Source: Aquimarina sp. ERC-38 (GTDB lineage Bacteria; Bacteroidota; Bacteroidia; Flavobacteriales; Flavobacteriaceae). From it: a stretch of 64,000 nucleotides of DNA. Of this stretch, positions 1 to 25,545 are shown piece by piece (positions within the stretch are counted from its first letter, which is position 1; each line of letters begins with the position of its first letter). The notes beneath the pieces were generated by a model. That model saw only the letters and a list, made by a program, of their open reading frames with translations, made no database searches and had not been told where the DNA came from. The DNA is taken from contig NZ_CP098511.1 in assembly GCF_026222555.1 (NCBI RefSeq), positions 1,593,501 through 1,657,500 on the forward strand, written 5' to 3'. A program made the translations under genes and the position numbers.

Positions 1-602
1 TTATCAATAAACACTTTGGTGAACGAAGGAATTACCAGTCCGGGAATTACTAAAAATAAACTTGCCAAGATAATATAGGTAACACTCATCTCCGAACCTG
101 AAATACGAGAAAGTAAAGAAGATCGGAGGCTCTTTTTTTCATCAGCTTTTTCAAATACTTCATTAGGTTCAAAAGTCATGACTACCCCGGTAAATGCATC
201 GTCAAATTCTTCGTGGGTGACCTGGTACCTTCCCTGGGCGGGATCGTTTAAACACACTTTATTCTTGGTAAATCCTTCCAGGACTAAAAAGTGATTAAAA
301 TTCCAAAAAATAATGGCGGGTGCCTTTACTTTTTTTAGCTTTTCGATAGACTTAGCAAAACCCTTAGCTTCTAATCCGAATTGCCTTGCTGCTTTTAAGA
401 TATTAGTTGCTTTTAACCCATCCCGAGATACCCCGCAAGCTATTCTTAATTTTTCGAGGGGTACAAAACGTCCGTGGTACCCTAAAATAATACTTAATGC
501 CGCCGCCCCGCATTCTACAGCTTCCATCTGCAAAACCGTAGGCGTTTTTATCGGACGGGGTAGTTTTTCGGTCTTTGTATTTTTTTGTTTTATGTTAAAC
601 AT
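1..602 (-). CDS. NHLM-type ABC transporter with C39 peptidase domain (partial)
   Basis: This is the N-terminal 200 residues of a peptidase-containing ABC exporter; the rest lies beyond the left edge. My own translation of the minus strand gives a C39 peptidase domain with the [12 protein letters not shown] motif (catalytic Cys31), [11 protein letters not shown] (His104) and LNDPAQG (Asp120). The first membrane segment begins near residue 173. The wording of these motifs matches the NHLM bacteriocin-system transporter family, which cuts leader peptides after a Gly-Gly pair while exporting the core across the inner membrane. HlyD-like and TolC-like partners lie upstream, so a complete type I secretion route is present. 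The likely substrates are the Gly-Gly leader peptides at 22.6-25.1 kb and perhaps the small peptide at 9264. The 395-base gap to the HlyD gene is unusually long for one operon and is filled with repeats. Confidence 0.93.
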
Positions 603-623
603 GATGCGGTTTTTTAGTTGAAT

Positions 624-925
624 AGTCATTAGGCACTAGGCAAAAGTGTTGTTTGGGTTATTTAGTTATTATGTTATTAAGTTGTTTTTGAATTCATAAT
701 TCTACATTTATAACTAGTCTATGGTGGACTAGCCATTAGCCACTAGGCAAAAGTGTTGTTTGGGTTATTTAGTTACTATGTTATTAAGTTGTTTTTAATT
801 CATAATTCTGCACTTATAACTAGTTTGTGGTGGACTGGCTAAAAGCCACTAGGTAAAAGTGTTGTTTGGGTTACTTTGTTGTTTTTAAACTCTAAATTTT
901 ACATTCATAATTAACGAACTTGTTT
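624..925. repeat. Tandem intergenic repeat, about 106 bases, nearly three copies
   Basis: Three imperfect copies start at 624, 731 and 837, so the period is 106-107 bases. Each opens with a form of CCACTAGGCAAAAGTGTT and continues with GTTTGGGTTA. Copies 1 and 2 are nearly identical over their whole length; copy 3 has lost an internal part and diverges at its end. No reading frame is conserved. The array fills most of the 603-997 gap between the HlyD and ABC genes. Related single copies occur at 4789-4932 and 25220-25311, so this is a dispersed family. Confidence 0.85.
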
Positions 926-997: not shown

Positions 998-2260
998 CTA
1001 ATATAAATCAAAGAACTTTTTTAATGCGGGGACTACGATGGCGGCCGGGGGTTCGGTTTTTACGGTTATTTTACCTAAGCAACTGGTTCCTTCGTTAATT
1101 ACTAGATCCGGACCCTGGGCAGAAGTCCATTTGAATCCGCTAAAGGAAGTAGTGTCCTTCTCAAATTCGACAAATACTTCAAATGGCGCTCCCATAGCCA
1201 ACAACCCCTGTACCAATTGATCATTTTTTACGGAGGTCATCATTCCCTTTTGGGTAATTGGAAAATCCGAAACGTAGGTAACTTTTCCTTTCATAAACCC
1301 GTGTTCCTGGGGTTGTACGGTCGAAGGAACTACCAGGGCTTCCATTCCAACTTTAATCTTTTTCCCATCCTGTGAAGGGATGTAAAGTACGCCTCTTAGT
1401 TTGTCATTATTTGACTTTACAAAGTTTTTCAATTTGCACAATGGCGAACCTTGCCCTACCATAATTCCGGCATCAGTTAATAATTCGACAACCTGCCCGT
1501 TGTAAGGACTTTTAATTTCTGTTTGAATTGTATAACGTTCATTCAATTGTTCTAATTTACGTTCGGCTTCAGCAATGCGTTGTTTTTGATTAGTAATACG
1601 TTGTTCAAGGTCAAAACCTAAATTTAATTGTTGACTGGATGCCTGAACCCGTTGTGCTTTTAACGATTCAATGCTATTTTTTGCATTCTCAATTTGTTGT
1701 TTGGTATTGACAACCTGTGATCGGGTTAATAGTCCTTGTTTCAGTAAATCATTTTCGGTTTTTAACTGATTTTTTAAGAAAGACAAGTTTTTACGTTGTG
1801 TTTCTATTTGTAGGTCAATACTGGAACGTTGTTGTTTAATCAATTCCCCCTGAATACGAGAATCTTGATTTCCATAAGACAATAATTGTTCTAACTCATA
1901 TTTGCGCTCGGTGATGGCAACTTGTGCTTCTTCGATCTGTTGTTGCAATTCCGGTTGTTCAATGATGGCAACGACATCTCCTTCCTTAATTTCGTCTCCT
2001 ATACTTACTTTTAAGTTTATTAACTGGCCCTGGGATGTAGAAACAATTTCGTGTATTTCTCCACCTAATAAAACACCCGTTACATTTAATTTGGTTTTTA
2101 CCCGGCCTATAAATGACCAACTGATTCCGGTAGCAAGGATCAATAAAATGGTTACCAGAGAAATCCAGGCTTTGGTTCCCGTAATTTTAATGAGTTGGTC
2201 GAGTTTCTCCGGAGTGGAGAGTTTTTCTAATGCTGCTTTTCTAAAAAATCCTGCTGCCAT
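998..2260 (-). CDS. HlyD-family (NHLM system) secretion adaptor protein
   Basis: This is a 420-residue periplasmic adaptor that links the inner membrane ABC exporter to the outer membrane channel. A short cytoplasmic N-terminus is followed by one membrane helix at about residues 32-52, a split lipoyl/barrel region (around GEIHEIVSTSQGQLINLKV), a long coiled coil at about 105-250, and a beta-rich C-terminal part. This order and length fit the secretion proteins of NHLM bacteriocin systems. It starts 18 bases after the TolC-like gene stops, so the two are probably co-transcribed. The C39 ABC transporter follows after the repeat-filled gap. Family membership is clear. The assignment to peptide export rests on the neighbouring C39 transporter and NHLP precursors. 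Confidence 0.93.
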   Translation of the reverse strand: MAAGFFRKAALEKLSTPEKLDQLIKITGTKAWISLVTILLILATGISWSFIGRVKTKLNVTGVLLGGEIHEIVSTSQGQLINLKVSIGDEIKEGDVVAIIEQPELQQQIEEAQVAITERKYELEQLLSYGNQDSRIQGELIKQQRSSIDLQIETQRKNLSFLKNQLKTENDLLKQGLLTRSQVVNTKQQIENAKNSIESLKAQRVQASSQQLNLGFDLEQRITNQKQRIAEAERKLEQLNERYTIQTEIKSPYNGQVVELLTDAGIMVGQGSPLCKLKNFVKSNNDKLRGVLYIPSQDGKKIKVGMEALVVPSTVQPQEHGFMKGKVTYVSDFPITQKGMMTSVKNDQLVQGLLAMGAPFEVFVEFEKDTTSFSGFKWTSAQGPDLVINEGTSCLGKITVKTEPPAAIVVPALKKFFDLY

Positions 2261-2278: not shown

Positions 2279-3919
2279 TTATGTTTTTGGAACAGTGTAA
2301 TACTGTTGTTTTGAAATAATTGGAGTATTAACGGAATCAGTAAATGCTACTAAGGTTCCGGTTTCATACCTAAGGTTAGCAATGGCTACGGCAAATTGTA
2401 GCTGTGCCTGTTGGTATTCCAGTTGGGCAAAAGTGAGCCGTTCCTGAAATAGGATTAAATTTAGGAGGGTGGTTAATCCGTTTTTAAATTTAATCTGTTC
2501 GTTTGTAAATACTTCCTGTGAATAGGTAAGAGTTTCTTTAGCTTTCTTTAAGATAGAAGCGGAATTCTCTACGTTAGTCACAGCAATATTCACATTTAAA
2601 CTAATATTTCGCTCCAGGTTATCGGTAGCAATTTCCTGGTTATCTAAAGCTGTTTTCTGCTGAAGGTAAGTACCTCTGGCGGTTTGATTTAGAATAGGAA
2701 GTGAAAGGTTTAACCGAACCCCTACGGTATAATTACTACCATCTTTATTCGTAATCGCTGAAAATGCCCGATCGATTCCATTGCCAAAATTTGTACCTCC
2801 GTATGAAACAAAACCGGTAAGGTTTAGTTCCGGATTGCGATTGTTTGCGGCTAAGCGTACTTGTTTCATCAAAGCTTCTTTTTCTTTTTGAAAAGCTTGT
2901 AAATCATTACGGTTGATAAGTGCCTGTTCTAGTAATTTATCTTTTAGTAAAGCACCGTCTACTCCTGATGTGCTAATTTCCGGGAAGGTATTTAAAGGAA
3001 TACTTAAGGCTTCACTTTCGGTTTCATTGAGTCCTACGGCTCGTCCCAGGTTAATTTTAGAATTTTGAAAGTTTTGAAACGCAGTATTCGTTAAACGTTG
3101 TTGATTAGCAAGGTCGGCTTGAATTTGTACCAGGTCTCCGGCTGGTTTTTTATCTGCTTTAACTAATTCTTTAGTAATCCGAAGTACGTTAGCCACCCGA
3201 TCTTCATTCTCTTTATAAATTAACCAGTTTTGAAAGGCTGCGGTGTATTGCCAGTAGGCTACGGCAATTTGCAGTAATTGAAAGGCACTCTCATTTTGAT
3301 AATTATTTTGTACGCTTTCCGAACGAAGGATAGCCGCTTTTTCCAGTGCCGTAGCTACTTTAATCCCACTTCCTCGTAATAAAGGCTGAGTAAGCGCTAA
3401 GGTAGAAGAGAAAGTATGGTTGGATAAGAAGGGTCGTACGTTTTGATTGAACTGGTTTAAAGGAAAATTATTAGCTACATCGGCATAATCTACGTTTAAG
3501 GTAGAAAAAAGTCCGTTTCTGAATGTTTTTTGTAAACCTAATGTAAAATCAATGGTTTCAGTTTCAATTAGGTTATTATCTATTAGTTCATTTCTTGGAT
3601 CCTGGTCAAATAGGTTAGACCGGTTATCCTGATACGAAATGCCTGAAAGAAAAACCGGGTTAAAAACACCTTGTTGAATTTGAATACCTCCTTCGGCACT
3701 TAGTATTTGATTTTTGTTTTGAAGGAGGATTGGATTGATGCCTAAAGCTTTGTTCGAAAGTTCTACCAGGTCACAGGGAATCTCATTTTGTGCTACGAGA
3801 GTTTGTAGGCTTGTAATTAGTAGACTAATTAGGGTTACTAAATAAAGAAAATTTTGTTTTTTACAATGCTTTTTAACTAAAGTCAAACCTGAGTATATCA
3901 AAGGATTTAACTCATTCAT
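2279..3919 (-). CDS. TolC-like outer membrane efflux protein
   Basis: This is an outer membrane channel of the TolC family, about 546 residues from the chosen start. After a hydrophobic signal segment ending near SLQTLVAQ come the two long alpha-helical repeat halves typical of the family, with GVRLNLSLPILNQTARG near the second half. It should complete the tripartite export system with the HlyD and ABC proteins. The reading frame stays open up to an ATG at 4027. However, the extra 36 codons contain an inverted, repeat-like stretch (CTGAGCTTAGTCGAAGAG and a partner CCCTTCAGTAAACTCAGG) and no signal peptide features, so I prefer the ATG at 3919. The 4027 start would lie only 9 bases after the cyclic-nucleotide-binding gene and cannot be excluded. 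Confidence 0.88.
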   Translation of the reverse strand: MNELNPLIYSGLTLVKKHCKKQNFLYLVTLISLLITSLQTLVAQNEIPCDLVELSNKALGINPILLQNKNQILSAEGGIQIQQGVFNPVFLSGISYQDNRSNLFDQDPRNELIDNNLIETETIDFTLGLQKTFRNGLFSTLNVDYADVANNFPLNQFNQNVRPFLSNHTFSSTLALTQPLLRGSGIKVATALEKAAILRSESVQNNYQNESAFQLLQIAVAYWQYTAAFQNWLIYKENEDRVANVLRITKELVKADKKPAGDLVQIQADLANQQRLTNTAFQNFQNSKINLGRAVGLNETESEALSIPLNTFPEISTSGVDGALLKDKLLEQALINRNDLQAFQKEKEALMKQVRLAANNRNPELNLTGFVSYGGTNFGNGIDRAFSAITNKDGSNYTVGVRLNLSLPILNQTARGTYLQQKTALDNQEIATDNLERNISLNVNIAVTNVENSASILKKAKETLTYSQEVFTNEQIKFKNGLTTLLNLILFQERLTFAQLEYQQAQLQFAVAIANLRYETGTLVAFTDSVNTPIISKQQYYTVPKT

Positions 3920-4036
3920 TAGAACCTGTCCTGAGTTTACTGAAGGGCTTGACTCTTCGACTAAGCTCAGAGTACATGTAGAGTTCTTAAAAGAGTTGAT
4001 ATTATATGTGTTTTGATGGCGGTACATGCTGTTACT

Positions 4037-4549
4037 TTAGATTTCGGAGAATTTATGTAGGATTTGGCTAAACCTGGCTCCGGCTTGAGAGATGCCTTCC
4101 ATCACATTAGTATCAATCCGGTCTTCTTCTTCGGGAGATCCGAAACCTAACTGACTGGTAGTTTTTCGTAACCGGTCAGATAAAAATAAAGCTAAAGAAT
4201 AGTAAAAGTTGGCCTTAAAAGTCGGATCTTTTTCCAGGCGTTCGGTTACTAGTTTTTTTGAAATACTATAAATTTCACAATCTTCAGAAGCAATTACATT
4301 AACAGCAGGAGGACGGGCTTCTAAAAAGGACATTTCACCTACAATTTCACCCGGACCGATGGTAGCAATGACTTTATCCTGATCCCGGATGGTTAATTCA
4401 CCGGAAAGGATGATATACAAATCTTCAGGAGCTTCGCCTTTATGAATTAAAAAATCTTGTTCGGAAATTTGAAGTTTTTGTCCGTTTCGGATCATCCATT
4501 CGATATCCAAGTCGGTCAGATGCCCTAATAAAAAAAGAACCTTTTTCAT
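4037..4549 (-). CDS. Cyclic-nucleotide-binding domain protein
   Basis: This is a single-domain protein of about 170 residues with a CRP/FNR-type beta-barrel. The pattern LYIILSGELTI, then ATIGPGEIVGEMSFLEARPPAVNV, then a C-terminal helix, is the usual cyclic nucleotide pocket. The sequence has GEMSFLEARPPA where cAMP binders have GE and RTA motifs, so ligand binding is plausible but not certain. No DNA-binding helix-turn-helix follows. It is the first gene of the minus-strand exporter operon, just before TolC. In other NHLM and cyanobacterial peptide exporters a similar domain is fused to the ABC transporter, so a gating or regulatory role in export is likely. The start at 4549 (MKKVLFLLG) was preferred to an ATG eight codons upstream. 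Confidence 0.85.
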   Translation of the reverse strand: MKKVLFLLGHLTDLDIEWMIRNGQKLQISEQDFLIHKGEAPEDLYIILSGELTIRDQDKVIATIGPGEIVGEMSFLEARPPAVNVIASEDCEIYSISKKLVTERLEKDPTFKANFYYSLALFLSDRLRKTTSQLGFGSPEEEDRIDTNVMEGISQAGARFSQILHKFSEI

Positions 4550-4788
4550 ATGTTTGTAATTATTATTTCTCAATAGTCATATAGAACCTTTAGTAACTAA
4601 ATAATTGTAGGTGACGTAAAATGAATTATCTAATTAAGTGGTTTCATATACATTGGAATTAGAAACTGCTATTGTTTGTGATAGTGCTAAAGTAGAGCAC
4701 TAAGGAACTATAAAACTGACATAGTTACGGAGAGAACTGCCGGGTTCCCCCGGAGGGGGAGGTTATCTGTTATTGAGTTATCAAGTTG

Positions 4789-5452: not shown

Positions 5453-6136
5453 TTACCTCCTAATTGTCAAAAGTTCTTTTGGGGTGGTTTTGTATTGTTG
5501 GTTAAAAATTTTAGAGAAATAATGAGTGTCTGAAAAGCCCACGGCATATGCAATTTCCGAAAGGGTATCGTACGTATAATTATCTAATAATTCTTTGGCT
5601 TTATGTAATTTTAAAATACGGATATATTTATTTGGGGTTAGGTGTAAGAGATGTTTGATTTTACGGTGTAACTGACGTTCGCTGATAGCGAGTTGATAAG
5701 AAATCTCCGTTAAGTTTAATTGGTTGCTATTACTTTTTTGAAACACCTCTTGTTCAAACTGGTACAACCATTGCCGATCCGATTTGGAGATACGATTCGT
5801 ATCCAGGTGGTTTCTACAGAGAAGTTGTACATGCTCATTGTTTTCGTAGATTTTGAAAAGAATGGGGGTAGTGGTATCTGAAATCCGTATTGCTTTGGAT
5901 TCGATGTTGGTAAGTACCTTTTCAATTAGGATTTTAATCTCTTTGCTATTAGAAAAAATAATTTCTGCGGATTGTCGCCTATGGATTTCTGTTGTTGAAA
6001 GGGAACTAGTCTCAGAACTAGCTTCCATAATGGATTGTAACGGGAGTTGAATACTTCCCAGGATTTGTTGTAATACATCCGGGGCATTCCAGTCAATTTT
6101 TAGTTTTTCTAAGGTGTTTGTGCTTGGTGTGTTCAT
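5453..6136 (-). CDS. AraC-family transcriptional regulator
   Basis: This is a cytoplasmic protein of about 227 residues from the chosen start. The C-terminal 100 residues form an AraC helix-turn-helix pair (ISYQLAISERQLHRKIKHLL, then EIAYAVGFSDTHYFSKIFNQ), ending close to the stop. The N-terminal half (LQQILGSIQLPLQSIME and then SAEIIFSNSKEIKILIEKVL) resembles the dimerisation helices of a histidine kinase without the phospho-accepting histidine motif. The protein therefore looks like a stripped-down relative of a hybrid two-component regulator. It sits upstream of, and in the same direction as, the peptide exporter operon, so it may control it; that is inferred from position only. The start at 6136 was chosen over a 12-codon longer form because it opens at a more typical N-terminus. 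Confidence 0.85.
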   Translation of the reverse strand: MNTPSTNTLEKLKIDWNAPDVLQQILGSIQLPLQSIMEASSETSSLSTTEIHRRQSAEIIFSNSKEIKILIEKVLTNIESKAIRISDTTTPILFKIYENNEHVQLLCRNHLDTNRISKSDRQWLYQFEQEVFQKSNSNQLNLTEISYQLAISERQLHRKIKHLLHLTPNKYIRILKLHKAKELLDNYTYDTLSEIAYAVGFSDTHYFSKIFNQQYKTTPKELLTIRR

Positions 6137-6801
6137 AGTATGCTGTTCGTTTTTTCCTATTCCCCGACCCATGCCTTCCTCTTATACCTCATCGGAGGCT
6201 GGAAGGAAAGGGGGGTGAATAAATCTGATTGATGAATGATTAAAATGCTGATTTGGCATTTATGTTGATTTCCTGTTCCCTTGTAATTTCTACTTTCCTA
6301 GGATGTCGTTATTTCGACAAGGTAAGAAGCAGAGTAAATAGGTTTTATTTTGTGTTTGCATCCCCCCGAACAGCAAAGCCCGGAAGAATGCTACACAAAA
6401 AACTCAACCTCTAATTTGTCCTATCCCCCGGCCCCTTTCCGGAAGTAAGGGGAGTAAATTTTCGTACCTTGTTGGAAGCAAGAGGCCGGGGGAAGATTGT
6501 TAATATGCTGATTAGGCATTTTGTTGTTTTTTGATTGTTGTTGATTAGACAATTTGATGAATGACCTCATTTTTAATTTATACTATTAATCTGCCCTAAT
6601 TGAATGAGTAGATGAATGCCTTCTATAAAATATTATAATAACAAAGAATCCAGGCAACCGTTACAAAGTTGGGATAGATAGCTTATACAATTATAAATAC
6701 ATTCTGATAAAAAATAAAGCATGTGTTTTTGTTTGTAAGTGTTGTTAGTGATCTGTGACAAATATGTAATAGAAACTAGGGTTTTGCAACCAAAGCTTGT
6801 C

Positions 6802-9413: not shown

Positions 9414-9430
9414 ATTTTAAGAATTTTTAG

Positions 9431-13388: not shown

Positions 13389-13516
13389 TATCGCCCAAAT
13401 AAAAAAGTTTTTTCTGTAAAACCAGCCAAAAACTTCATAAATAATTCGAAATATTTGTAACAAAATTGAACCATTTTACGACTAATAGTAAATTCCTAAA
13501 TCATAATTTAGATCGT

Positions 13517-14665
13517 ATGCTTTATCACATAAAATTCTTATTATACCTAATAGTCATATTTACTACAAAAAGTTATTCTCAAAAAATAAAATTTATTGAA
13601 CGAGAATGGACAATGTTTGAACAAAAACTAAAATTAGAGTCTGATCAGACCGTAGACTTTAAATTGATAGCGAACATAAAAACCAAGGGCTTACAAGATA
13701 ATAGCGCTGCTTTTATTTGGACAACTATCAAGAATAAAAAAGGAGAGGAAGAAGGAAAGTATAAGCAAGTTATGGATTCTTTAACTAAAAGTGATACCTG
13801 GTCTACCTATGTGCTGGAAGGGTCATTTGATCAGAAAGCCGAAGAATTACAATTTGGCGGATATGTTTTAGGAAATGGAGATTTTTATTTTGACGATTTT
13901 AAGTTAATATTTAGAGAAGCAAATAGTAAGGACTATAACGAAGTATCTGTTTCAAATCATTCTTTTCAAAAACCAGTTGTCAATGACAGTATCCCTGAAT
14001 GGTCGCAATTCGGATGGAAAAATGATAGCGTTCTCAAAGTGAAAGGCTTTAGTTTTCATACACCTACTTCAGAAAATTCGAAAAAATCGTTCTTGCATAT
14101 AAAGGGTCGTGGAGTAGAAAAAAGAAAATCAGGACAAATTAAAGCTAAGGAAGGATTCTCGCCACAAATAGGCGTGTTAATTGCCATGTTAAATAATTTA
14201 AGTAACCGGGTAGAACGTGTAGTAAAAGACTTGGACCTTAGAGAAACGGATCATTTACACGATGAAAAAGCTAATCGAATAGGTGCGTTAATTATGCACC
14301 TGGCCGCAGCAGAAAAAATTTATCAAAATATGACTTTTGAAAATAGAAGGTTTACAAAAGATGAAGAAATTTGGCAAATTGCTTTGGAACTTGATGAAAA
14401 GGCAAGGCACGAGTTTCAAGGAAAGCCCATAAAATATTACTTAGATATTTATAAAGAGACGCGAGAAAAAACTATAGAAGAATTAAAAAAGAGAGACGAT
14501 ACATGGCTAGAAGCTTCCTGGCCTGGTTCAACCATGAATAACCATTTTGCTTGGTTTCATGTAATGGAGCATCAATCTAGTCATTTAGGTCAAATATTAT
14601 TTTTAAAAAAGCGAATTCCGGAAGAAAAAGTTCCTGAACCTAAACTTGAAGAAGAGATAGATTAG
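13517..14665 (+). CDS. Secreted two-domain protein with DinB-like C-terminus
   Basis: This is a protein of about 382 residues from the start at 13517, which gives the signal peptide MLYHIKFLLYLIVIFTTKS; an upstream ATG at 13466 adds 17 unlikely residues. The N-terminal half is beta-rich (about 25-190, with GYVLGNGDFYFDDFKLIF) and resembles carbohydrate-binding or jelly-roll modules found in secreted Bacteroidota proteins. The C-terminal half is a four-helix DinB-like domain with histidines placed as metal ligands (IMHLAAAE and HVMEHQSSHLGQI). DinB-family proteins are usually cytoplasmic thiol-dependent enzymes, so a secreted fusion is unusual. It sits between the two peptidase pairs and probably belongs to the same transcription unit. 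Its reaction is unknown. Confidence 0.75.
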   Translation: MLYHIKFLLYLIVIFTTKSYSQKIKFIEREWTMFEQKLKLESDQTVDFKLIANIKTKGLQDNSAAFIWTTIKNKKGEEEGKYKQVMDSLTKSDTWSTYVLEGSFDQKAEELQFGGYVLGNGDFYFDDFKLIFREANSKDYNEVSVSNHSFQKPVVNDSIPEWSQFGWKNDSVLKVKGFSFHTPTSENSKKSFLHIKGRGVEKRKSGQIKAKEGFSPQIGVLIAMLNNLSNRVERVVKDLDLRETDHLHDEKANRIGALIMHLAAAEKIYQNMTFENRRFTKDEEIWQIALELDEKARHEFQGKPIKYYLDIYKETREKTIEELKKRDDTWLEASWPGSTMNNHFAWFHVMEHQSSHLGQILFLKKRIPEEKVPEPKLEEEID

Positions 14666-14736
14666 ATTTATTCTTCCCAGCGGATAAAGCTATTATTCTA
14701 TATTGACCAAAATAAATAATATACCTCCTGTTTTTT

Positions 14737-16866: not shown

Positions 16867-16939
16867 CATAATAAAAGCTACAGATGAAATTTTGGACTTA
16901 TGTATTATTTACTCTTTAAGCAATGGTTATAATAGTTTT

Positions 16940-17512
16940 ATGCAAACAAAAGCCGCTGGAAACGAATCCAAAAATATAGATAAGCATTTGCATTATCCTA
17001 ATGATTGGGCGAATGGAAAGGAGATAGTTGACAATTTTATACTGGTGGGAGCAACTTCAAAAATTCCGGACGAACATTTTGTAGCTTCTTTTTCTAATTA
17101 CGGAAAAGAGCAAGTTGATCTTTTTGCCCCCGGAAAAGAAGTATATACTGCCCATTGGAAAAATACTTATAACATTACACAAGGCACTTCTTTTGCATCT
17201 CCAATAGTTGCCTATGTTGCAGCCTTAATTAGATCCCATTATCCAAAATTAACCGCTCCTGAAGTAAAACAAATCTTACTAAACTCCGGAACACCTTATG
17301 ATTTGAATATCGAAATCAAACAGGAAGATGGAACTAAAAGCAAAGTTCCTTTCTCTAAGCTTTCTAAAAGTGGGAAAGTGGTAAATGCTTATCAGGCTTT
17401 GTTAATGGCGAAGATATTAAGTAAAAAATGGATAAGAATTATACGTTTAACTTTTAAAATTTTAAATTTATACAACTTTCTTCATTTGAGAATTACCTAT
17501 TCACTTACATAG
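16940..17512 (+). pseudogene. Truncated S8 subtilase fragment
   Basis: Only the C-terminal half of a subtilase remains. The fragment begins near an in-frame ATG at 16940 and keeps the oxyanion region (KAAGNES), VDLFAPGKEV, and the Ser motif GTSFASPIVAYVAAL. The Asp and His catalytic regions are missing, so it cannot be an active peptidase. The same frame opens upstream inside the preceding S9 gene, but that part shows no subtilase homology. It matches the frameshifted subtilase at 11722 closely at its end (KVPFSKLSKSGKVVNAYQAL against VPFTELSKSGGIVNAYNAL). It may have arisen by deletion between the duplicated units. A short unrelated tail follows residue KK at about 17430. Confidence 0.8.
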
Positions 17513-17601
17513 TTATGATCTAAAAATATTTAGAAGTGTAAAATAATTAAGTGTAAATATGTAATTAATAGTATACTTGTAGAATCATTACTGTCGGACT
17601 T

Positions 17602-18939
17602 ATGAGTACAGATTATAAAAGTGAATCCTTTAGAAAATTACTTGATAAATTACAACAAGAAAGTTGGCAGTTGGAATTATTAGTATCCGGATTTGTAATC
17701 TTTGGTTTGTTTGCTGCGGTTGATAAATTACAAGAACCTATTAATCGAACTTCAATAGAGGGTCAAGTACTAATAAGTATATTTATGATAACTCTGTTAG
17801 TATCCTGTTACTCTATAATTTTAAACCTTATTCTTCACTTAATTTTACGTGGTTTATGGATTGGAGCCTTGGGTTTACGCTATGTGTCTGGAGATATTGA
17901 TTTTGAAGTTTTAAATTATAATAAAAAATTTACAAAATATCTTAAAAAAAGAATAGTTTCTTTCGATAAATATTTGGCTACGTTAGAAAATACGTGTAGC
18001 GTTTTATTTGCCATATCCTTTCTATTAGTTTTTTACTTAATATCATTTTTTATTATCTCTTTGCTTTTTGCGGCTATAACTTTTTTTGTATTTAAGAATG
18101 ATAGTTTCTCTGAGCTAACACAGCAATTTTTGGGATATTCCTTACTAATTTTACTCGCAATAGGTGTCTTATTTACATTCTTAGATTCTCTTACTGTTGG
18201 CTACTTCAAACGAAATCGGTACATAGCCAAAATTTACTACCCAATCTATTACATTTTTAGTTTTATAACACTTTCTTTTTTGTACCGATCTATCGTACAT
18301 AATTTTATAGATAACAAGTTTGGAAAAAAGATTTTTAAACTTTTAATTCCTGTATATATAATAATTTTATTCATAACTAACATTGAGTATCAAGTTTCTA
18401 ATTACATAGGAACTAATTCTTTCAAGAGGATTAACATGGATATAGTTATGTCTAGGAATAGCTACGAAAACAATCTTGAAGATAATAAAGATCTAGTAAA
18501 AGTTACTTCCATTCCATCAAAAATTATTAATAGTAATTATCTAAATTTATTTCACACTTATAATGGTAAAACTGAAGATCATATTTTCGCATATGATAGT
18601 ACAATGCTTCCTAAAAAAGATGAACGTGGCTATTTTTTAGGTTTGTTCCGTCTTGGCGAAGATACGGATTCTATAATTAAAGTAAAGAAAGAAAAAGCTC
18701 GACAATATTTGTGTACGTTTAATCAATCTCATCAAATTTTAATTGACACTATATCCTTTCCTAGTGATTTTCTAATAAGTTATAATAAAAAAGAGCAACT
18801 TGGCTTTGAGACGGTATTAAATTTAAAAAACCTTTCGGAAGGAAAACATATATTATATCTTAAACGTTTAGAACGAAATAATCAAGATAGTTTGATTACC
18901 AAAGAAGTGAGTACAATCCCTTTTTGGTATTATAAATAG
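17602..18939 (+). CDS. Polytopic membrane protein of unknown function
   Basis: This 445-residue protein is not recognised. Around six membrane segments are visible: residues about 24-41, 57-85, 132-165, 178-198, 215-238 and 248-266. A soluble C-terminal domain of about 170 residues follows (from EYQVSNYIGTNSF to the end). The first 25 residues are charged and cytoplasmic-looking (ESFRKLLDKLQQESWQLE). It lies 89 bases after the broken subtilase on the same strand and ends the AT-rich island; an IS66 remnant follows. Conceivably it exports or gives immunity to the Gly-Gly peptide product, but nothing in the sequence shows this. Confidence 0.65.
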   Translation: MSTDYKSESFRKLLDKLQQESWQLELLVSGFVIFGLFAAVDKLQEPINRTSIEGQVLISIFMITLLVSCYSIILNLILHLILRGLWIGALGLRYVSGDIDFEVLNYNKKFTKYLKKRIVSFDKYLATLENTCSVLFAISFLLVFYLISFFIISLLFAAITFFVFKNDSFSELTQQFLGYSLLILLAIGVLFTFLDSLTVGYFKRNRYIAKIYYPIYYIFSFITLSFLYRSIVHNFIDNKFGKKIFKLLIPVYIIILFITNIEYQVSNYIGTNSFKRINMDIVMSRNSYENNLEDNKDLVKVTSIPSKIINSNYLNLFHTYNGKTEDHIFAYDSTMLPKKDERGYFLGLFRLGEDTDSIIKVKKEKARQYLCTFNQSHQILIDTISFPSDFLISYNKKEQLGFETVLNLKNLSEGKHILYLKRLERNNQDSLITKEVSTIPFWYYK

Positions 18940-18994
18940 TAAGATTTGCTCTATTGTAGGGTAAACTTCCAAGTGTGTTTTCTTCGTATATAGG

Positions 18995-19258
18995 CTATAG
19001 TAGTAGTTCTTCTAGTTTGAGCATACTGTGCTCTAGTATTAGCTGTAATGTGTCAGTCAGCCATTCTTTGAAATTAATTCCTTGCATTTTATAGCTTTCA
19101 AAAAAAGTAATGTAGTATTACAGCGTTTTGTGCTACCTTGTACGATCCGCAGAAAATATAATTCTTTCTTTCGATTAATATAGGTTGGATTGCATTTTTG
19201 ATCAGGTTTTTATATCGTTCGATGCGTACATTATCAAAGATGACTTTCAGTTTTGGAT
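18995..19258 (-). mobile_element. IS66-family transposase remnant (C-terminal fragment)
   Basis: The minus strand encodes NVRIERYKNLIKNAIQPILI, then ERKNYIFCGSYKVAQNAVIL and HYFF. After a one-base shift it continues ESYKMQGINFKEWLTDTLQL and ends LKLEELLL before a stop. This is the C-terminal end of an IS66 TnpC transposase (compare the family pattern NAIRP, GRKNYLFAGS, CKxxGINPxEWL). It is frameshifted and lacks its front part. The rest of the 711-base stretch 18940-19650 shows no other clear gene. The remnant marks the right side of the AT-rich island. Confidence 0.8.
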
Positions 19259-19650
19259 GTTAATTGATGAAATAAATTTACGCACTACCAATGTGTAGCC
19301 TTCCTTTTTTTATGGCATGAGATGCTGCAAATTTTTTTTGATTCTGACCTGAAATCTCAAAATTCCTTACTAACTTAACATCTGTTATTTTGTGTCATAA
19401 CTTATATTTATTTGCGACAACAAAACTAAGTCGCATAATATACTTTGGACAATGTAGTTGCTTGGTGAGATACCACCAGAACGTCAATAACAACCTTATC
19501 AGTGGTCATGCTTTAGAAAGGGGTTTAGTTCAGTGCATCCATAAAGTTCTCAGTAAACTTTGAATTTAAAATAAAACAGATTCTCTTTAAGTAATTACTT
19601 CTTTGCATTGTATCCCACCTCAAACTTAATTATCGTAGGCTGTTCTTCTA

Positions 19651-20700
19651 TCAAATGTCAGACTTTATAAACTTTATTATTTCAGACACATAATCTTGTT
19701 GGTTTTCAATGTTCATCGAGTGACCTGATTTTTTAATTACCTTTAATTCAGAATTTGGATAAAGTTCCTTATATTCGTGAGCAAATTCCCAATCTAAGTA
19801 ATCACATTCGGGTTTTAATATAAGAACTGGTTTGTCATATTTTTTCATATCGTTTCTTATACTTTCAGGAACATTTTCGTAGGATTGATTTGTGAACATT
19901 GAGCAATACATTCCTGGCCTTCCTACAGGTTTTGAAACTATGGTAGAATCACAGACCATAGCTTTTACAAATTCTTTAGAAATCTTGTGTAAAATCCCAT
20001 CAACTTTATTATCACTTATAAAACTAGTATTTCTACTAACCTTCGCTAAACTTAACCAAATTATTTCTCTAAAACTAAAATCATTTATTTTTGTATTGAT
20101 TTTATTAATTCTCTCATCAATATCTGTTAGTTTATAAATATAATCTGGGGTGTTAAATTTATCATAATTTGTAGAATAGACAGGATGGATTTGACCTGGA
20201 GCTGTTAAAACTAATTTAGTTATTAAATTAGGATTATTAGATACAAAATATGATGCTAAAAAACCTCCCCAAGATTGTCCTACTAATATTACATTAGGCA
20301 CATTCAATTTTTCTAATATTTCTTTTAAATCTTTTGAATGACGATCAACGGTATATTCATCAGGATTTTTAAGCCTTTTAGATAATCCGCACCCTATTTG
20401 GTCATATAAATAAACGTTGTATCCTTGTTTAGATATTTCCCTATATGTTTCAATAGTTGAATTGTCTATATAACCACCCGGACCGCCATGAAGATAGATA
20501 ATTGTCGATTTAATTGATTCGACTTCTGATTTTAGTTGTGTGTACGCAATTTTAGATCCAGTACTTAATTCCCAATATTGAGTAGATTTTCTTGGGGTGT
20601 CATCAAAATCTGATTCAAAGTTTGGAATTAATATCCATATAATTATCCCTATAATTAGGATTAATGGTATATATATCAAAGGTTTTCGTATAATTTTCAT
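19651..20700 (-). CDS. Alpha/beta hydrolase, proline iminopeptidase-like (S33)
   Basis: This 349-residue protein has an N-terminal membrane anchor (LIYIPLILIIGIIIWILI) followed by an alpha/beta hydrolase fold. HGGPGG at residues 71-76 is the S33 proline iminopeptidase signature, and GQSWGG carries the nucleophile Ser143. The acid is probably the Asp in KPECDYLDW and the base the His in KKSGHSMNIE near the end. Enzymes of this family release N-terminal proline or hydrolyse other small substrates. It probably faces the periplasm, tethered by the helix. It lies between the island and the NHLP peptide genes on the minus strand. Proline preference suits the proline-rich cores nearby, but that link is only inferred. 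Confidence 0.85.
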   Translation of the reverse strand: MKIIRKPLIYIPLILIIGIIIWILIPNFESDFDDTPRKSTQYWELSTGSKIAYTQLKSEVESIKSTIIYLHGGPGGYIDNSTIETYREISKQGYNVYLYDQIGCGLSKRLKNPDEYTVDRHSKDLKEILEKLNVPNVILVGQSWGGFLASYFVSNNPNLITKLVLTAPGQIHPVYSTNYDKFNTPDYIYKLTDIDERINKINTKINDFSFREIIWLSLAKVSRNTSFISDNKVDGILHKISKEFVKAMVCDSTIVSKPVGRPGMYCSMFTNQSYENVPESIRNDMKKYDKPVLILKPECDYLDWEFAHEYKELYPNSELKVIKKSGHSMNIENQQDYVSEIIKFIKSDI

Positions 20701-21202: not shown

Positions 21203-22375
21203 TTATGCTAGTACAAATTTTATAACTTCTTCCATTCTAAAATTTGCCATGGTTTTATCTATTTCATTTTTTAGTCTATCCATCATGTTATAATCTGTTA
21301 ATGTATTTTTTTCAAATTTGTTCATCAATTTTTTGAAAATATTCCAGTAATTGGGATTATCATCTGGATGAGGTATGTGACCAGAAACACCAAGTTTCTG
21401 TAACCTTTGTGCAATGTCTTCACGATCGTAACATTGAGTTCCAATTGTAAGAAATGCTGTTTTTGTTATCAATGGGTAATGGTATATTCCAGAGCCACAT
21501 TGATGGATAACTAAATCTGATATTTTACAAATGTAATTCAAAGGCAACAATTTATTATAAAAAACATTATGTTTATACTGTTCGCTTATTTTACAATCAT
21601 TGGTAGTTATTATAGCATAATTACGTTCTGCGAAGTATTCAATATATTTTTCAACAGGTGTTTTGTCGACAGTACCCGTTGTGACAAAGACAATAGGTTT
21701 GCCTTTATTTAATTCAAAAAATATCCCTAACCTAATTAATAGATTCTTCGAAGGTTTATTTTTTATAAATAGAGGACCAGAATAGAAATATGATGGTCTA
21801 TTTTCTATGTTGTCTGGAAGGCACTCAAGAGAGGGTATTCCAGGAATAATCTTCGCTTTGGCACTTTTATATACGCTAAAATTATTTTGATCATCAAACT
21901 TACTATTTTGCAATAACCTGGAAGCAGTTTTTGATGACTCGGCAAATGAAGGTTGTACAGAGTCTGCCTTTTCCATAGAATGAAGATGGTTAGGATTTCT
22001 ATAACTTTTATCAATTGACCTAAAAAATCCTGTCCTTTGAATAGAAATTCTAGGTACATTATTCTTTTCTGCTATAAGAGGGGAAGTAAGTGAACAGTCT
22101 TCTATGATTAAGGTAGGTTTTATTTTTTCGTATGCCTCTTTTTCTTTTTTCATCACATACTCTATGGCTTGTTTTCTATTTTTTAGATGCTTAGTTTTAT
22201 CTCCAAAATAGTCTATGGGTACACAACTCACACCTTTCCTTTTTAAAAAATTTTGTAGGTCATTATGAGCCAAGAAATAGCTGTTCATACTCGTGTTATA
22301 TTTATTATTTAGGGCAAGTAATGGAAGCATATGCGACAAACCTCCAGTAAAATATGGTATATTTAAAATAGTCAT
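21203..22375 (-). CDS. GT1-like glycosyltransferase within the NHLP peptide array
   Basis: This 390-residue protein has the two-domain GT-B layout of UDP-glycosyltransferase (GT1) enzymes. The N-terminal acceptor domain begins MTILNIPYFTGGLSHMLPLL (the GGxxHxxP pattern). The C-terminal donor domain has IVFVTTGTV at its start and DLVIHQCGSGIYHYPLITKT, a form of the HGGxGT/E donor-sugar motif, with QCYDREDIAQRL following. No signal peptide is seen, so it is cytoplasmic. It is on the same strand as the NHLP genes, with intact copies before it and a decayed copy after it. This placement makes it a candidate for sugar modification of a precursor peptide, for example on Ser or Thr of the 22598 core. 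An unrelated acceptor is also possible. Confidence 0.85.
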   Translation of the reverse strand: MTILNIPYFTGGLSHMLPLLALNNKYNTSMNSYFLAHNDLQNFLKRKGVSCVPIDYFGDKTKHLKNRKQAIEYVMKKEKEAYEKIKPTLIIEDCSLTSPLIAEKNNVPRISIQRTGFFRSIDKSYRNPNHLHSMEKADSVQPSFAESSKTASRLLQNSKFDDQNNFSVYKSAKAKIIPGIPSLECLPDNIENRPSYFYSGPLFIKNKPSKNLLIRLGIFFELNKGKPIVFVTTGTVDKTPVEKYIEYFAERNYAIITTNDCKISEQYKHNVFYNKLLPLNYICKISDLVIHQCGSGIYHYPLITKTAFLTIGTQCYDREDIAQRLQKLGVSGHIPHPDDNPNYWNIFKKLMNKFEKNTLTDYNMMDRLKNEIDKTMANFRMEEVIKFVLA

Positions 22376-22545
22376 TTGGATAAAATAAGTTAAACGGTTA
22401 GGGAGCTTTTACGCATTTTTTTCCAACGGTATAGTTGATCAATTCCGATCTTAGTTCTTTACTAAAAACATATATTTATTTTAAAATTGTTATATTATAT
22501 ATAATCAAATCATTCCAGAAGCGTAGTTAATTTCCATTTTATAAG

Positions 22546-22585
22546 CAATGTGTATAAAGCAAGATTATTTGCCTTATACACATTG
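22546..22585. terminator. Hairpin after the last intact NHLP gene
   Basis: Inverted arms CAATGTGTATAA (22546-22557) and TTATACACATTG (22574-22585) with a 16-base loop lie just after the stop of the 22598 peptide gene on the minus strand. It may end or attenuate transcription before the glycosyltransferase. The T-tract is weak, so it could also be an mRNA-stabilising hairpin. Confidence 0.5.
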
Positions 22586-22597
22586 TTTATGTATTTA

Positions 22598-22951
22598 CTA
22601 CCACTCAAGGTGTATATCAATTTCTATCGCACCCCATAAATAACTTCCTTCTATATCAATTACAACGCCACCTGCAATAACTTCCAAATCTTCTTCAGTT
22701 AATTCCATATCGAAATCTGCAACTAACTCTTTTGGATCCGCAGGAATGTTAAGATATAAGGTTGAAGTATCTGTTTGATCATTTACCTGAATTTTTACTC
22801 CCTCAGGATTAAATTCACCCTTTGTAATCCTATTAAGCGTAGCAATAGGATCATTAATTAAACTTTGCTTAAATTCTTCATTTTCCCATGCTTTTGCATA
22901 AATTTTTTGTAAGTTACTGTCTGCTTTCTTTTGCAATTCTACTAAATTCAT
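22598..22951 (-). CDS. NHLP leader precursor peptide, copy 6
   Basis: This is a 117-residue precursor. The 95-residue leader is the most divergent of the intact set (MNLVELQKKADSNLQKIYAK) but keeps AWENEEFKQSLINDP, the region resembling the nitrile hydratase alpha subunit, and ends TEEDLEVIAGG. The C39 transporter should cut after Gly95. The 22-residue core is hydrophobic and acidic, with two Trp, one Tyr, one Ser, one His and no Cys or Pro; it starts VVIDIEGSYLW. It is the closest relative of the decayed copy at 20790 and lies next to the glycosyltransferase, so its core is the best candidate acceptor. The leader is unlike the others, which suggests an older or separately acquired copy. Confidence 0.9.
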   Translation of the reverse strand: MNLVELQKKADSNLQKIYAKAWENEEFKQSLINDPIATLNRITKGEFNPEGVKIQVNDQTDTSTLYLNIPADPKELVADFDMELTEEDLEVIAGGVVIDIEGSYLWGAIEIDIHLEW

Positions 22952-23051
22952 TGTTTCTCAGTTTTAAATATTAATAATTAATTTGTTTATAAATGTTATT
23001 TTAAAATGCAACTAAAAGGTAATGTTGACTTTAAATTATCAAATGAGTCAT

Positions 23052-23190
23052 TTATACAACCAACTCTGTACCTTCAGGTAAATTGAACTTTTCTCCGGTT
23101 AATTTTTCTATTGCTTCAATAGGATTGTAATTCAACTCTGTTTTTAGAGGCTTCACTTTTCCATGCCTTAGTAACGATCTGCCGAAAACA
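23052..23190 (-). pseudogene. NHLP precursor remnant
   Basis: In two frames this stretch encodes QIVTKAWKSEASKNRVELQS and then NPIEAIEKLTGEKFNLPEG with TELVV before a stop. These match the middle of the NHLP leader in the intact neighbours (NPVQAIEALTGEKLNIPEG). A frameshift separates the two pieces, and no cleavage site or core remains. It lies between the copies at 22598 and 23236. Confidence 0.85.
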
Positions 23191-23235
23191 CTATCAACTT
23201 TACCTTTAAAATTTTAACACAATACTAATTAGGTT

Positions 23236-23562
23236 TTATTGAATAATCCAATTCAGTATCGGATGGTCTCTATATCGAAAATCTCTTCCACCTGCAATGA
23301 TCTCTAATTCTTTTTCATTCAATTCAATATCGTCCAAATCTCTTTTGGTTGGAATATTAATGTAAATAAAATGTTTATTTGTTTGATCTTGTACCACTAA
23401 GGTTTTACCTTCCGGGATGTTTAATTTTTTTCCGGTGAGTTTTTCAATTGCTGCAACTGGATTAGCAATCAATTCCTGTTTAAAACTTTCATCTTCCCAG
23501 GATTTTTTGATAATAGTGTTTAGGATTTCTTGTCCTTTTTGTTGTTGTTCTGTAGATGTCAT
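23236..23562 (-). CDS. NHLP leader precursor peptide, copy 5
   Basis: This 108-residue precursor has a 92-residue leader with SWEDESFKQELIANPVAAIE and KLNIPEGKTLVVQDQT, and ends LNEKELEIIAGG. The core RDFRYRDHPILNWIIQ (16 residues) is basic at its start and aromatic, with one Pro and one Trp and no Cys, Ser or Thr. Without Cys, Ser or Thr there is no site for heterocycles, thioethers or O-glycosylation, so this copy may be exported unmodified or be modified on other side chains. It begins MTSTEQQQKG, unlike the MEL-type start of the upstream copies. Confidence 0.92.
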   Translation of the reverse strand: MTSTEQQQKGQEILNTIIKKSWEDESFKQELIANPVAAIEKLTGKKLNIPEGKTLVVQDQTNKHFIYINIPTKRDLDDIELNEKELEIIAGGRDFRYRDHPILNWIIQ

Positions 23563-23705
23563 TTGTTTTTAGTTTATAAAGTTTGCATTCCATTCTATTT
23601 TCCGTAATCTATGAGTGAGCTAGAGAAGTTTTGATAAATTACTTTTCAACTTCGCTCGAAATGACTGGTAAAAGAATAGTATGCTTGCCTCGATTGATGA
23701 ATAAT

Positions 23706-24017
23706 TTATTTTAAAAAATCTCCGAAGACATCATTAAAGATTTCTATTATTGATTTACCCCCCGCAACCGCTTCCAGTTGATCTTCGTTAAGTTCTACAT
23801 CTTCGGCTGGTGCCGTAGGAATATTAATATATACCGTATCTTCTGCGGTTTGATCACGTACTACCAGCGTTTTTCCTTTAGGAATGTTTAACTTTTTACC
23901 AGTTAGGGCTTCAATGGCTGCTACCGGATCAGCGATTAGCTCTTGTTTAAAACTTTCATTTTCCCAGGCTTCATTGATGATCTGTTGGTAGCGTGCTTGC
24001 TCTTTAGATACTTCCAT
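23706..24017 (-). CDS. NHLP leader precursor peptide, copy 4
   Basis: This 103-residue precursor has the 87-residue leader typical of the array (QQIINEAWENESFKQELIAD and ending DQLEAVAGG). The core KSIIEIFNDVFGDFLK is 16 residues long and reads as an amphipathic helix: Ile, Phe, Val and Leu line one face while Lys, Glu, Asn and Asp fall on the other. It has no Cys or Pro and one Ser. The layout resembles small unmodified membrane-active peptides, but its net charge is negative, unlike most antimicrobial peptides. It lies 143 bases before copy 5. Confidence 0.93.
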   Translation of the reverse strand: MEVSKEQARYQQIINEAWENESFKQELIADPVAAIEALTGKKLNIPKGKTLVVRDQTAEDTVYINIPTAPAEDVELNEDQLEAVAGGKSIIEIFNDVFGDFLK

Positions 24018-24045
24018 AATAACTGTTCGTTTTTTGATGAATTAA

Positions 24046-24408
24046 TTACCCAAAAGGAAAGTTGTCCGGAGCTTTTTCGTCAATCCAGATAGTAGGATCC
24101 CATATTTGCGGATCACCAAATTTGATGATAGGTATTTCAATTCCTCCGGCTACGGCTTCTAACTGCTCTTCGCTTAACTCTACATTTGCCGTATCTACTG
24201 CTGCGGGGATATTGATGTATACCGCATTCTCATCCGTTTGATCACGTACCACTAGCGTTTTTCCTTCGGGAATGTTTAACTTTTTACCGGTTAAGGTTTC
24301 AATGGCTTGTATTGGATTTACAAGTAGTTCCTCTTTAAAACTTTCGTTTTCCCAGGCTTCGTTAATAATTTGTTGATACAATTGTTGTTCTCTTGTTAGT
24401 TCCATCAT
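24046..24408 (-). CDS. NHLP leader precursor peptide, copy 3
   Basis: This 120-residue precursor has an 89-residue leader ending LSEEQLEAVAGG and the longest core of the set, 31 residues. The core starts IEIPIIKFGDP and contains five Pro, two Trp and one Thr, with no Cys. Two adjacent ATG codons (24408 and 24405) can serve as start. The stop TAA of the preceding copy (24411-24409) abuts the first ATG with no base between, so translation of the two copies is probably coupled. Confidence 0.93.
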   Translation of the reverse strand: MMELTREQQLYQQIINEAWENESFKEELLVNPIQAIETLTGKKLNIPEGKTLVVRDQTDENAVYINIPAAVDTANVELSEEQLEAVAGGIEIPIIKFGDPQIWDPTIWIDEKAPDNFPFG

Positions 24409-24759
24409 TTAAAATTTTGCAGTGTTAATTTTTTCCCAGGGTAGTGAAGGTCTAGGGTAGAAAATAAGAGGTCTTTTTATTAGCTCATATCCTCCGGCAA
24501 CCGCCTCTAGTTGTTCCTCATTTAACTCTACATCATTATCCTCAACAGGCATTGCTGCTGGAATATTGATATATACCGTATTTTCATCTGTCTGATCTCT
24601 TACTACCAGCGTTTTTCCTTCAGGGATGTTTAACTTTTCACCGGTTAAAGTTTCTATCGCCTGTACCGGATTTTCTAGTAATTCAGCTTTAAAACCTTCG
24701 TTTTCCCAAGCTTCGTTAATAATTTGTTGAAATAACTCTTGTTCTTTTGTAAGTTCCAT
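24409..24759 (-). CDS. NHLP leader precursor peptide, copy 2
   Basis: This 116-residue precursor has a 90-residue leader (MELTKEQELFQQIINEAWEN, ending ELNEEQLEAVAGG). The 26-residue core starts YELIKRPLIFYPRPSLPW and is basic, with four Pro, one Trp, one Ser, one Thr and no Cys. It is the second gene from the array's start, 15 bases after copy 1. Its stop codon directly abuts the start of copy 3. Confidence 0.93.
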   Translation of the reverse strand: MELTKEQELFQQIINEAWENEGFKAELLENPVQAIETLTGEKLNIPEGKTLVVRDQTDENTVYINIPAAMPVEDNDVELNEEQLEAVAGGYELIKRPLIFYPRPSLPWEKINTAKF

Positions 24760-24774
24760 AATATTAGTTTTTAA

Positions 24775-25104
24775 TTACATTTCTGGTGTTGGGTCAAAAG
24801 GGGAAGGGAAATTTGGGATAATCCATTTTGGTATATCATTTCTTCCCCCAGCAACCGCTTCTAATTGTTCTTCACTTAGTTCCGCATCAACAGGTATTGC
24901 TGCCGGGATGTTAATGTATACGGTAGATTCATCCGTCTGATCTCTTACTACCAAGGTTTTTCCTTCAGGGATGTTTAACTTTTCCCCAGTTAAGGCTTCG
25001 ATAGCTTGTACTGGATTTTCTATTAAGTCCTTTTTAAAACTTTCATTTTCCCAGGCTTCGTTAATAATCTGCTGGAACAGTTGTTGTTCTTTAGATAATT
25101 CCAT
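24775..25104 (-). CDS. NHLP leader precursor peptide, copy 1
   Basis: This 109-residue precursor is first in the array. The leader of 87 residues (MELSKEQQLFQQIINEAWEN, then NPVQAIEALTGEKLNIPEGK, ending LSEEQLEAVAGG) is the nitrile-hydratase-like leader known from NHLP/proteusin-type peptides. The core of 22 residues starts RNDIPKWIIPNFPSPF and is rich in proline (six residues), with one Trp, one Ser, one Thr and no Cys. The C39 transporter at 1-602 is expected to cut after Gly87 and export it. The promoter for the array should lie in 25105-25200, but I could not find a convincing TAnnTTTG box there. Confidence 0.94.
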   Translation of the reverse strand: MELSKEQQLFQQIINEAWENESFKKDLIENPVQAIEALTGEKLNIPEGKTLVVRDQTDESTVYINIPAAIPVDAELSEEQLEAVAGGRNDIPKWIIPNFPSPFDPTPEM

Positions 25105-25219: not shown

Positions 25220-25311
25220 GTTGACTAGGCAAAAGGCACTAGGCAGAAGTTTTTTAGTTATTGTGGTTGCTAAGTTATCTTTTACTCGTTATTAAGTTAT
25301 TATGTTACTAG
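25220..25311. repeat. Dispersed CACTAGGCA-type repeat upstream of the NHLP array
   Basis: GTTGACTAGGCAAAAGGCAC and then TAGGCAGAAGTTTTTTAGTT and GTTATTAAGTTATTATGTTA follow the same word order as the tandem repeat at 624-925 and the copy at 4789-4932. It lies in the 652-base gene-free stretch 25105-25756 between the NHLP array and a divergent small gene. A hairpin AAGAATC/GATTCTT at 25358-25374 follows. Confidence 0.7.
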
Positions 25312-25392
25312 GTTTATAAGAATCTTAGACGCAAAGTTTCAAAGCCTCAAAGTACCAAAGAATCTAAGATTCTTAAAATCTATATACTTGTA

Positions 25393-25545
25393 TATCTTTG
25401 CATCTCTACCTCTCTTCTACTTTGTAACTCTACAACTCTACATCTCTGCAACTTTGTAACTTTGCACCTCTGCTACTTTATAACTTTGCATCTCTGTACC
25501 TCTACACCTCTACACCTCTGCAACTTTGTACCTTTTCCCCTCTGC
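25393..25545. repeat. Degenerate pyrimidine-rich simple repeat
   Basis: About 150 bases consist of near-copies of 7-8 base words such as ACTTTGTA, ACCTCTGC, ATCTCTAC and ACCTCTAC, for example CTCTGCAACTTTGTAACTTT. A short purine-rich counterpart (CAAAGTTTCAAAGCCTCAAA) precedes it at about 25333-25352. No reading frame is conserved. The region separates the NHLP genes from the next gene. Confidence 0.8.

Follow-up and report, generated by a model that had tools for sequence, protein, structure and literature searches.

Precursor peptides with nitrile hydratase-like leader peptides (NHLPs) are best known from proteusin systems, in which precursors of family TIGR03793 share a leader ending at a Gly-Gly (GG) site, carry different cores and are served by a three-part ABC/HlyD exporter (TIGR03794, TIGR03796 and TIGR03797). 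NHLP leaders engage different enzymes, with a role for an L(X)4L motif, as described in the accessible part of one study (PMC12455567), and the available text of another reports class II lanthipeptide families with NHLP leaders and varied cores that were found through LanC (PMC7268733). NHLP genes without known maturases were already noted by Haft et al. in 2010, in the accessible part of that paper (PMC2887384); available excerpts of two further papers mention a proteusin cluster in Kordia (PMC10734526) and LanM with an NHLP precursor, identified by antiSMASH, in a Flavobacterium strain (PMC7317107). Here, we focus on an NHLP system in Aquimarina sp. ERC-38, lying largely within a stretch of 64,000 nucleotides (the window; genome positions 1593501-1657500 of a single 4.43-Mb contig), in which an array of six precursor genes is followed by a gene for a GT-B glycosyltransferase that is likely to be the maturase of the peptides.

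The window has in common with NHLP/proteusin systems the leader family, the GG site, the three-part exporter and shared-leader precursors with different cores. Unlike those systems, it is one for which no radical S-adenosylmethionine (SAM) enzyme of the type acting on ribosomally synthesized and post-translationally modified peptides (RiPPs), no linked YcaO and no LanM was found, and in which a GT-B glycosyltransferase is the putative modifier, with linked cyclase-domain and cyclic-nucleotide (cNMP)-binding proteins. The combination of conserved leader and varied cores is also that of class II lanthipeptides with NHLP leaders (accessible part of PMC7268733), and relatives of the window system do have a LanM-type protein; unlike the class II enzymes, however, this protein comprises the dehydratase part only (475-650 residues in all ten array loci that have it), and the window has none. 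As in SunS-type glycocins, a glycosyltransferase in the window is probably the chief enzyme to modify exported GG peptides. Glycocins are made by GT-A/GT2 enzymes of the SunS type that act on Cys or Ser, and have a disulfide-linked, Cys-containing core. The window enzyme, in contrast, is GT-B by its predicted model and the cores contain no Cys, which places the system outside the glycocins.

All six precursor genes lie on the minus strand: precursor 1 (24775..25104; 57.7 bits to TIGR03793) with the Pro/aromatic core RNDIPKWIIPNFPSPFDPTPEM, precursor 2 (24409..24759; 53.9 bits) and precursor 3 (24046..24408; 55.6 bits) with Pro-rich cores, the latter of 31 residues, precursor 4 (23706..24017; 54.6 bits) with a short, amphipathic-looking core, precursor 5 (23236..23562; 56.7 bits) and precursor 6 (22598..22951; 58.9 bits). 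The initial annotation had proposed six intact precursors with a common leader ending in AGG, and the open reading frames were indeed found, all six scoring 53.9-58.9 bits, more than the 50.9 bits that the curated TIGR03793 model requires. Between precursors 5 and 6, three-frame translation revealed the remnant of a broken precursor (about 23052..23180, minus strand), with leader pieces in two frames. A seventh precursor lies 8.3 kb beyond the left edge of the window and scores slightly below the cut-off (48.7 bits). The leader ends in AGG, a Gly-Gly cleavage site, in all seven. Measured after GG, the cores of precursors 1-6 have 22, 26, 31, 16, 16 and 22 residues (133 in total), in agreement with the range of 16 to 31 proposed earlier.

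The counts of six, four and five prolines in the first three cores were likewise confirmed, and this excess is real (15 of 79 residues against a background of 3.4%; binomial P 6e-8). So is the excess of Trp over the six cores taken together (7 of 133 residues; P 8e-4); for all aromatics together, P is 0.026. The cores are free of Cys, as had been noted (0 of 133), and the translations of the six window precursors contain no Cys at all and thus no nitrile-hydratase metal-binding Cys cluster. Absence of Cys from the cores is unremarkable, since with Cys making up 0.59% of residues locally, chance alone gives it with a probability of 0.45. Across 97 parsed cores, which include the seven of this genome and exclude those of L033 and L079-L087 (loci of other types), Cys is present in 33, none of them among the seven; the parser dropped 7 of 121 rows that had no clear GG. 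Sorted by eye, the cores of relatives belong to a few kinds that recur: helices of Gly-zipper type, an amphipathic helix with the pattern W..D....LFP.L, Pro/aromatic cores and sentinel cores, which are short.

The next gene, 222 bp downstream of the array on the same strand (21203..22375, minus strand), encodes an intact-looking GT-B (GT1-type) glycosyltransferase of 390 residues, the proposed tailoring enzyme. Its match to TIGR01426 (3.6e-6) is far below the cut-off. The predicted structure (mean predicted local distance difference test score 76, predicted template modelling score 0.75, disordered at about 131-168) has the two Rossmann domains of a GT-B fold, and GT-B enzymes are among the structural matches listed. 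A protein collection yielded 228 homologues at E 0.001, and among the matches listed (119 besides the query) identity ranges from 55 to 83% over the whole length. An alignment of 26 rows shows H15, H291 and D317 to be invariant and G294, S295 and G296 to be at least 90% conserved; the invariant HQC is followed by a near-invariant GSG, and further conserved stretches are an invariant YHYP and a YDRED in which DRED is invariant. H15 and the HQC/GSG pattern resemble the catalytic His and donor motif of GT1 enzymes, and the residues may have the same roles here. The fold is like that of the GT1 antibiotic glycosyltransferases YjiC, OleD, GtfB and GtfD, whose donor-site pattern the window enzyme may also have, but it is only 11-17% identical to these and is linked to ribosomal peptides.

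This linkage was followed, by searches that did not set out from the array, in a phylum sample and an order sample of 395 genomes each, which overlap in the Aquimarina genome itself, G075 and G396; at most four candidates per genome were scored in both glycosyltransferase searches. The phylum sample contains the glycosyltransferase in three genomes and NHLP in 14, all three being within those 14. In the order sample it is present in four genomes as five copies, each adjoining an array, and outside the Aquimarina genome the evidence amounts to four copies in three genomes. Only one of 72,556 plasmid records carries the glycosyltransferase and only one a precursor; both are the same Spirosoma oryzicola plasmid, on which the two genes are 0.55 kb apart. 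Every copy detected in the two samples and the plasmids is therefore found beside an NHLP array.

We compared the window with 14 further Bacteroidota array loci (L025, L026, L028, L030, L031, L032, L036, L072, L073, L075, L076, L077, L078 and L093; L073 is the same as L029 and L075 the same as L027), leaving out partial loci and those of other types (L033-L035, L074 and L079-L087). Each of the 15 has three to eight array precursors, and all but L028, which begins inside the array, have a TPR/cyclase gene. Regulator and cNMP genes are present in ten, TolC in nine, HlyD in eight and an ABC match in eight (L029 being counted for L073), where missing parts may lie past the ends of contigs or of the stretches examined. 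The position after the array is a slot for candidate modifiers of several kinds. The glycosyltransferase occupies it in eight loci (the window, L030, L031, L032, L036, L072, L076 with two copies, and L093), a figure that is biased because most of those loci were found via precursors; a LanM-type dehydratase without cyclase is found in ten (L025, L026, L028, L031, L032, L036, L072, L077, L078 and L093), a methyltransferase in three (L030, L031 and L036) and a JmjC oxygenase, possibly a core hydroxylase, in three (JmjC_2; L025:11940-13163, L075:8688-9902 and L078:9124-10386). Scanned against NCBIfam, two of the LanM-type proteins (L032 and L077) show a match that covers positions 1-519 of the 932 in LanM and no more. 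The window and L076 have the glycosyltransferase as their sole candidate modifier. In the Tenacibaculum locus (L029/L073), a gene of 1124 codons following the array was considered as a modifier and dropped; its product has no Pfam match and, judged by eye, resembles a protein of the surface or outer membrane that carries a signal peptide.

From the precursors and exporter genes, from a gene neighbourhood that recurs and from the linkage of glycosyltransferase and array, we infer a multi-peptide NHLP system whose cores would be glycosylated, cut at GG and exported as a cocktail, a reading to which we give somewhat better than an even chance. Seven precursors with leaders ending in L(X)4L...AGG would be made in the cytoplasm, where the GT-B glycosyltransferase would glycosylate the cores, all of them or only some; action on the peptides is suggested by gene neighbourhood and family-array linkage. 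As in known NHLP systems, the C39 transporter ABC1 would then cut after GG, and ABC1 and ABC2 together with HlyD and TolC would export the cocktail, which is probably of the bacteriocin type and would act on competitors. Two adenylate/guanylate-cyclase-domain proteins, the cNMP-binding protein and an AraC regulator may exert control. Linear, uncyclised products fit the absence of both Cys and LanC. A broader reading, held tentatively and at a little under even probability, is that of a modular NHLP family in Bacteroidota, with one recurring chassis (a protein with a cyclase domain, an array whose cores differ chemically, a cNMP protein and C39-ABC/HlyD/TolC) and interchangeable tailoring genes; in the branch formed by the window and Flavobacterium flavigenum, a leader-guided GT-B glycosyltransferase would be the sole tailoring enzyme, giving glycosylated linear proteusins.

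If this is true, a glycosyltransferase is guided by NHLP leaders, and modification of this kind was found reported for no NHLP system in the literature searched; nor was any report of a glycosyltransferase linked to NHLP arrays found there, most subscription journals being outside the reach of that search. The Kordia glycosyltransferase P0026 is 59% identical to the window enzyme, and the Kordia proteusin cluster, as far as the accessible part of its report goes (PMC10734526), could be of the same kind. A chassis with swappable tailoring genes would give direct access to how leaders steer different enzymes. Such loci would probably escape LanC-centred mining of the kind in the available text of PMC7268733, because their LanM-type proteins have no cyclase part. 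They point to Bacteroidota peptides that may carry sugars and that have, as a group, drawn little notice.

The initial annotation had seen no maturase, and searching the full genome for radical SAM, YcaO and LanM genes upheld this for the classical enzymes, which are either missing or unlinked; it did not hold for the gene directly downstream of the array, whose family is array-linked. LanM (PF13575) was not found in the genome and is present in three of the seven genomes searched, which include this one but not that of L025. PF13575 gave no match in 14 standard controls either, and the genomes of relatives therefore served as the positive check. LanC was also not found in the genome, with one control genome positive, so that with Cys-free cores and neither PF13575 nor LanC the system is no class II lanthipeptide locus, for which LanM and a Cys core would be expected. 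Among the 12 radical SAM genes none is of RiPP type: the ten scanned all belong to named families not tied to RiPPs (MiaB, MtaB, HemW, RimO, LipA, a PA0069 family, BioB, RlmN, ArsS and a DNA-repair-linked family), and the other two are MoaA-like and QueE-like by eye. The single YcaO is about 0.77 Mb from the array in a separate operon (C1:2382229-2393281; L023:7230-18282) with inositol-phosphate-synthase-like, methyltransferase-like (by eye), GT4 and LmbE-type deacetylase-like genes. Given that distance, and seven Ser/Thr and no Cys among 133 core residues, the array does not have the linked YcaO and Cys/Ser/Thr-rich core of a thiazole/oxazole-modified microcin; it is possible that YcaO acts in trans from its distant locus. 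These searches led us to reject radical SAM, YcaO, LanM and LanC as hidden maturases. The YcaO operon is, in itself, reminiscent of low-molecular-weight thiol synthesis, with matches to thiol families below cut-offs.

Several observations weigh against glycosylation of the cores. Ser and Thr are few (7 of 133), one core having neither; Ser, Thr or Tyr is found in all seven cores of this genome, as chance alone would give. Cores from glycosyltransferase loci show no clear enrichment of any potential acceptor residue relative to the others (raw percentages with/without glycosyltransferase, with no significance test: S 4.8/4.7, T 6.2/7.5, Y 3.5/2.8, W 2.9/1.7, N 3.3/2.9). The core IPKWIIPxFP of precursor 1 recurs in the Aquimarina locus L025, where the modifiers are JmjC and the LanM dehydratase and there is no glycosyltransferase, which disfavours a strict match of core and enzyme. 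No sugar-nucleotide synthesis genes were seen among the annotated genes around the array. Furthermore, a hairpin with a 22-nt stem, formed by an inverted repeat (22541..22590, minus strand), separates the last precursor from the glycosyltransferase and makes a single transcript for array and glycosyltransferase uncertain. Folding of 90 nt gives -23.9 kcal/mol, with z -5.3 relative to 200 shuffles of the letters. The terminator scan found no U-tailed terminator, here or elsewhere, and the hairpin may limit expression of the glycosyltransferase relative to the precursors. Strong hairpins follow the array in five of the seven other glycosyltransferase loci (L031, L036, L072, L076 and L093; z -4.2 to -7.9), with weaker ones in L032 (z -2.2) and L030 (-0.8); of seven loci without glycosyltransferase, L025, L026 and L078 have z -4.3 to -5.0, L073 and L077 about -3, and L028 and L075 none.

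In a rival explanation, in our view unlikely, the cores would be exported unmodified, as multi-peptide bacteriocins with an NHLP leader, and the glycosyltransferase would act elsewhere, for example in self-protection through alteration of a surface glycolipid. The same core beside different modifier sets in L025 and the window is what this explanation would expect, as is L073, the one locus of the 15 whose array, of five peptides, adjoins no recognised modifier, a locus that also counts against the main reading. The last cores of relatives, moreover, resemble the Gly-zipper membrane helices that unmodified class II bacteriocins form. Yet at least one candidate modifier stands in the slot of 14 of the 15 loci, and for the LanM-type dehydratase of ten of them a role in immunity is hard to see.

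Modification by enzymes other than the adjacent glycosyltransferase appears less probable still. Dehydration of the cores in trans by a split LanB pair that stands as an orphan about 0.58 Mb from the array (L096:9011-12151; an N-domain of 754 residues and, by eye, a C-domain-like protein of 289) is very unlikely: the pair has no obvious LanA adjoining it, and LanB does lie inside or beside the array locus in L077 and L036, but few Ser/Thr are available in the window cores (7 of 133), the search for LanC found none in the genome, and the occurrence of LanB does not follow that of the array, because it is common in genomes without NHLP. Among 30 hand-picked genomes it occurs in six of eight with arrays, yet in nine of ten same-genus and four of ten same-family genomes without NHLP, and in both same-genus genomes with other NHLP genes. 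It is just as improbable that an island of S9 and S8 peptidases, with a proline-iminopeptidase-like gene, acts on the exported Pro-rich peptides to mature or destroy them. Between regulator and glycosyltransferase there are indeed subtilases, two genes for S9 prolyl-oligopeptidases and one for a proline-iminopeptidase-like hydrolase, the first three cores are Pro-rich, and S9 peptidases mature class III/IV lanthipeptides, according to the accessible part of PMC10885120. The island, however, is on the opposite strand with its own AraC regulator, its second S8 gene has no front half, and no S9 or S8 counterpart was found in the examined parts of the 14 further array loci, parts that in some cases stop short of the region in question.

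Besides the proline-iminopeptidase-like gene, the island (7395-20700), which is inserted inside the NHLP system, encodes S9 and S8 peptidases that look secreted, an AraC/TPR regulator and a DinB/MST protein. S9a and S9b are 31% identical, and S8b is the gene without a front half. A supposed loss of the catalytic His from S8a was rejected, since comparison by eye with a fuller S8 gene in L096 shows it to be present.

The NHLP system as a whole spans about 36 kb (genome 1582823 to 1618604) and thus extends beyond the window. The window holds, all on the minus strand, an AraC-type regulator (5453..6172; helix-turn-helix matches), whose homologue adjoins the cNMP gene in relatives where the region was seen; a cyclic-nucleotide-binding bacteriocin-transport-associated protein (4037..4573; TIGR03896 at 121.5 bits, below the cut-off of 161; PF00027); a TolC-type outer-membrane exporter (2279..4027; TIGR01844 at 51.5 bits, below cut-off); the HlyD adaptor (998..2260; TIGR03794 at 314.8 bits, above the cut-off of 156.2); and part of ABC1 with its C39 peptidase (1..629; L094:9887-12130; TIGR03796 at 1070 bits; PF03412), a gene that extends past the left edge. 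To the left of the window lie the remainder of ABC1, ABC2, a DUF7005 protein, a GAF/PAS-cyclase-domain protein, the seventh precursor and a TPR-cyclase-domain protein. With TIGR03797 at 873.7 bits, the linked genes of all three exporter families score above their cut-offs, and the export gene set is complete.

The system is sporadic in the genus, as three of 33 Aquimarina genomes (this one included) have an NHLP match and the other two have partial content: G018 and G021 have two precursors or one fused, with no glycosyltransferase or transporter match within 20 kb. Spirosomataceae belong to a different order from Aquimarina, and the 80% identity of P0004, from a Spirosomataceae metagenome-assembled genome, to the window glycosyltransferase suggests horizontal transfer of the system. 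Four stretches ahead of the array and the glycosyltransferase were scanned for the Bacteroidota promoter motif TAnnTTTG and contained none, and a promoter scan gave 33 sites against 33.7 expected by chance.

The DUF7005 protein (L021:14082-15314) has HECAH and DELIAD stretches that look metallopeptidase-like by eye; in L025, L029 and L030 homologues stand close to genes for NHLP transporters, and another is found in the cyanobacterial L035. Next to the cNMP gene, four loci encode a further NHLP protein (L072:6075-6410, L076:7512-7838, L077:946-1284 and L093:14037-14375), whose conserved tail, TDYxxLYDSL, differs from the cores of the array. On the upstream side of the window array, at 25300-25500, lies a low-complexity, repeat-like stretch made up of variants of aactttgcatctctgc.

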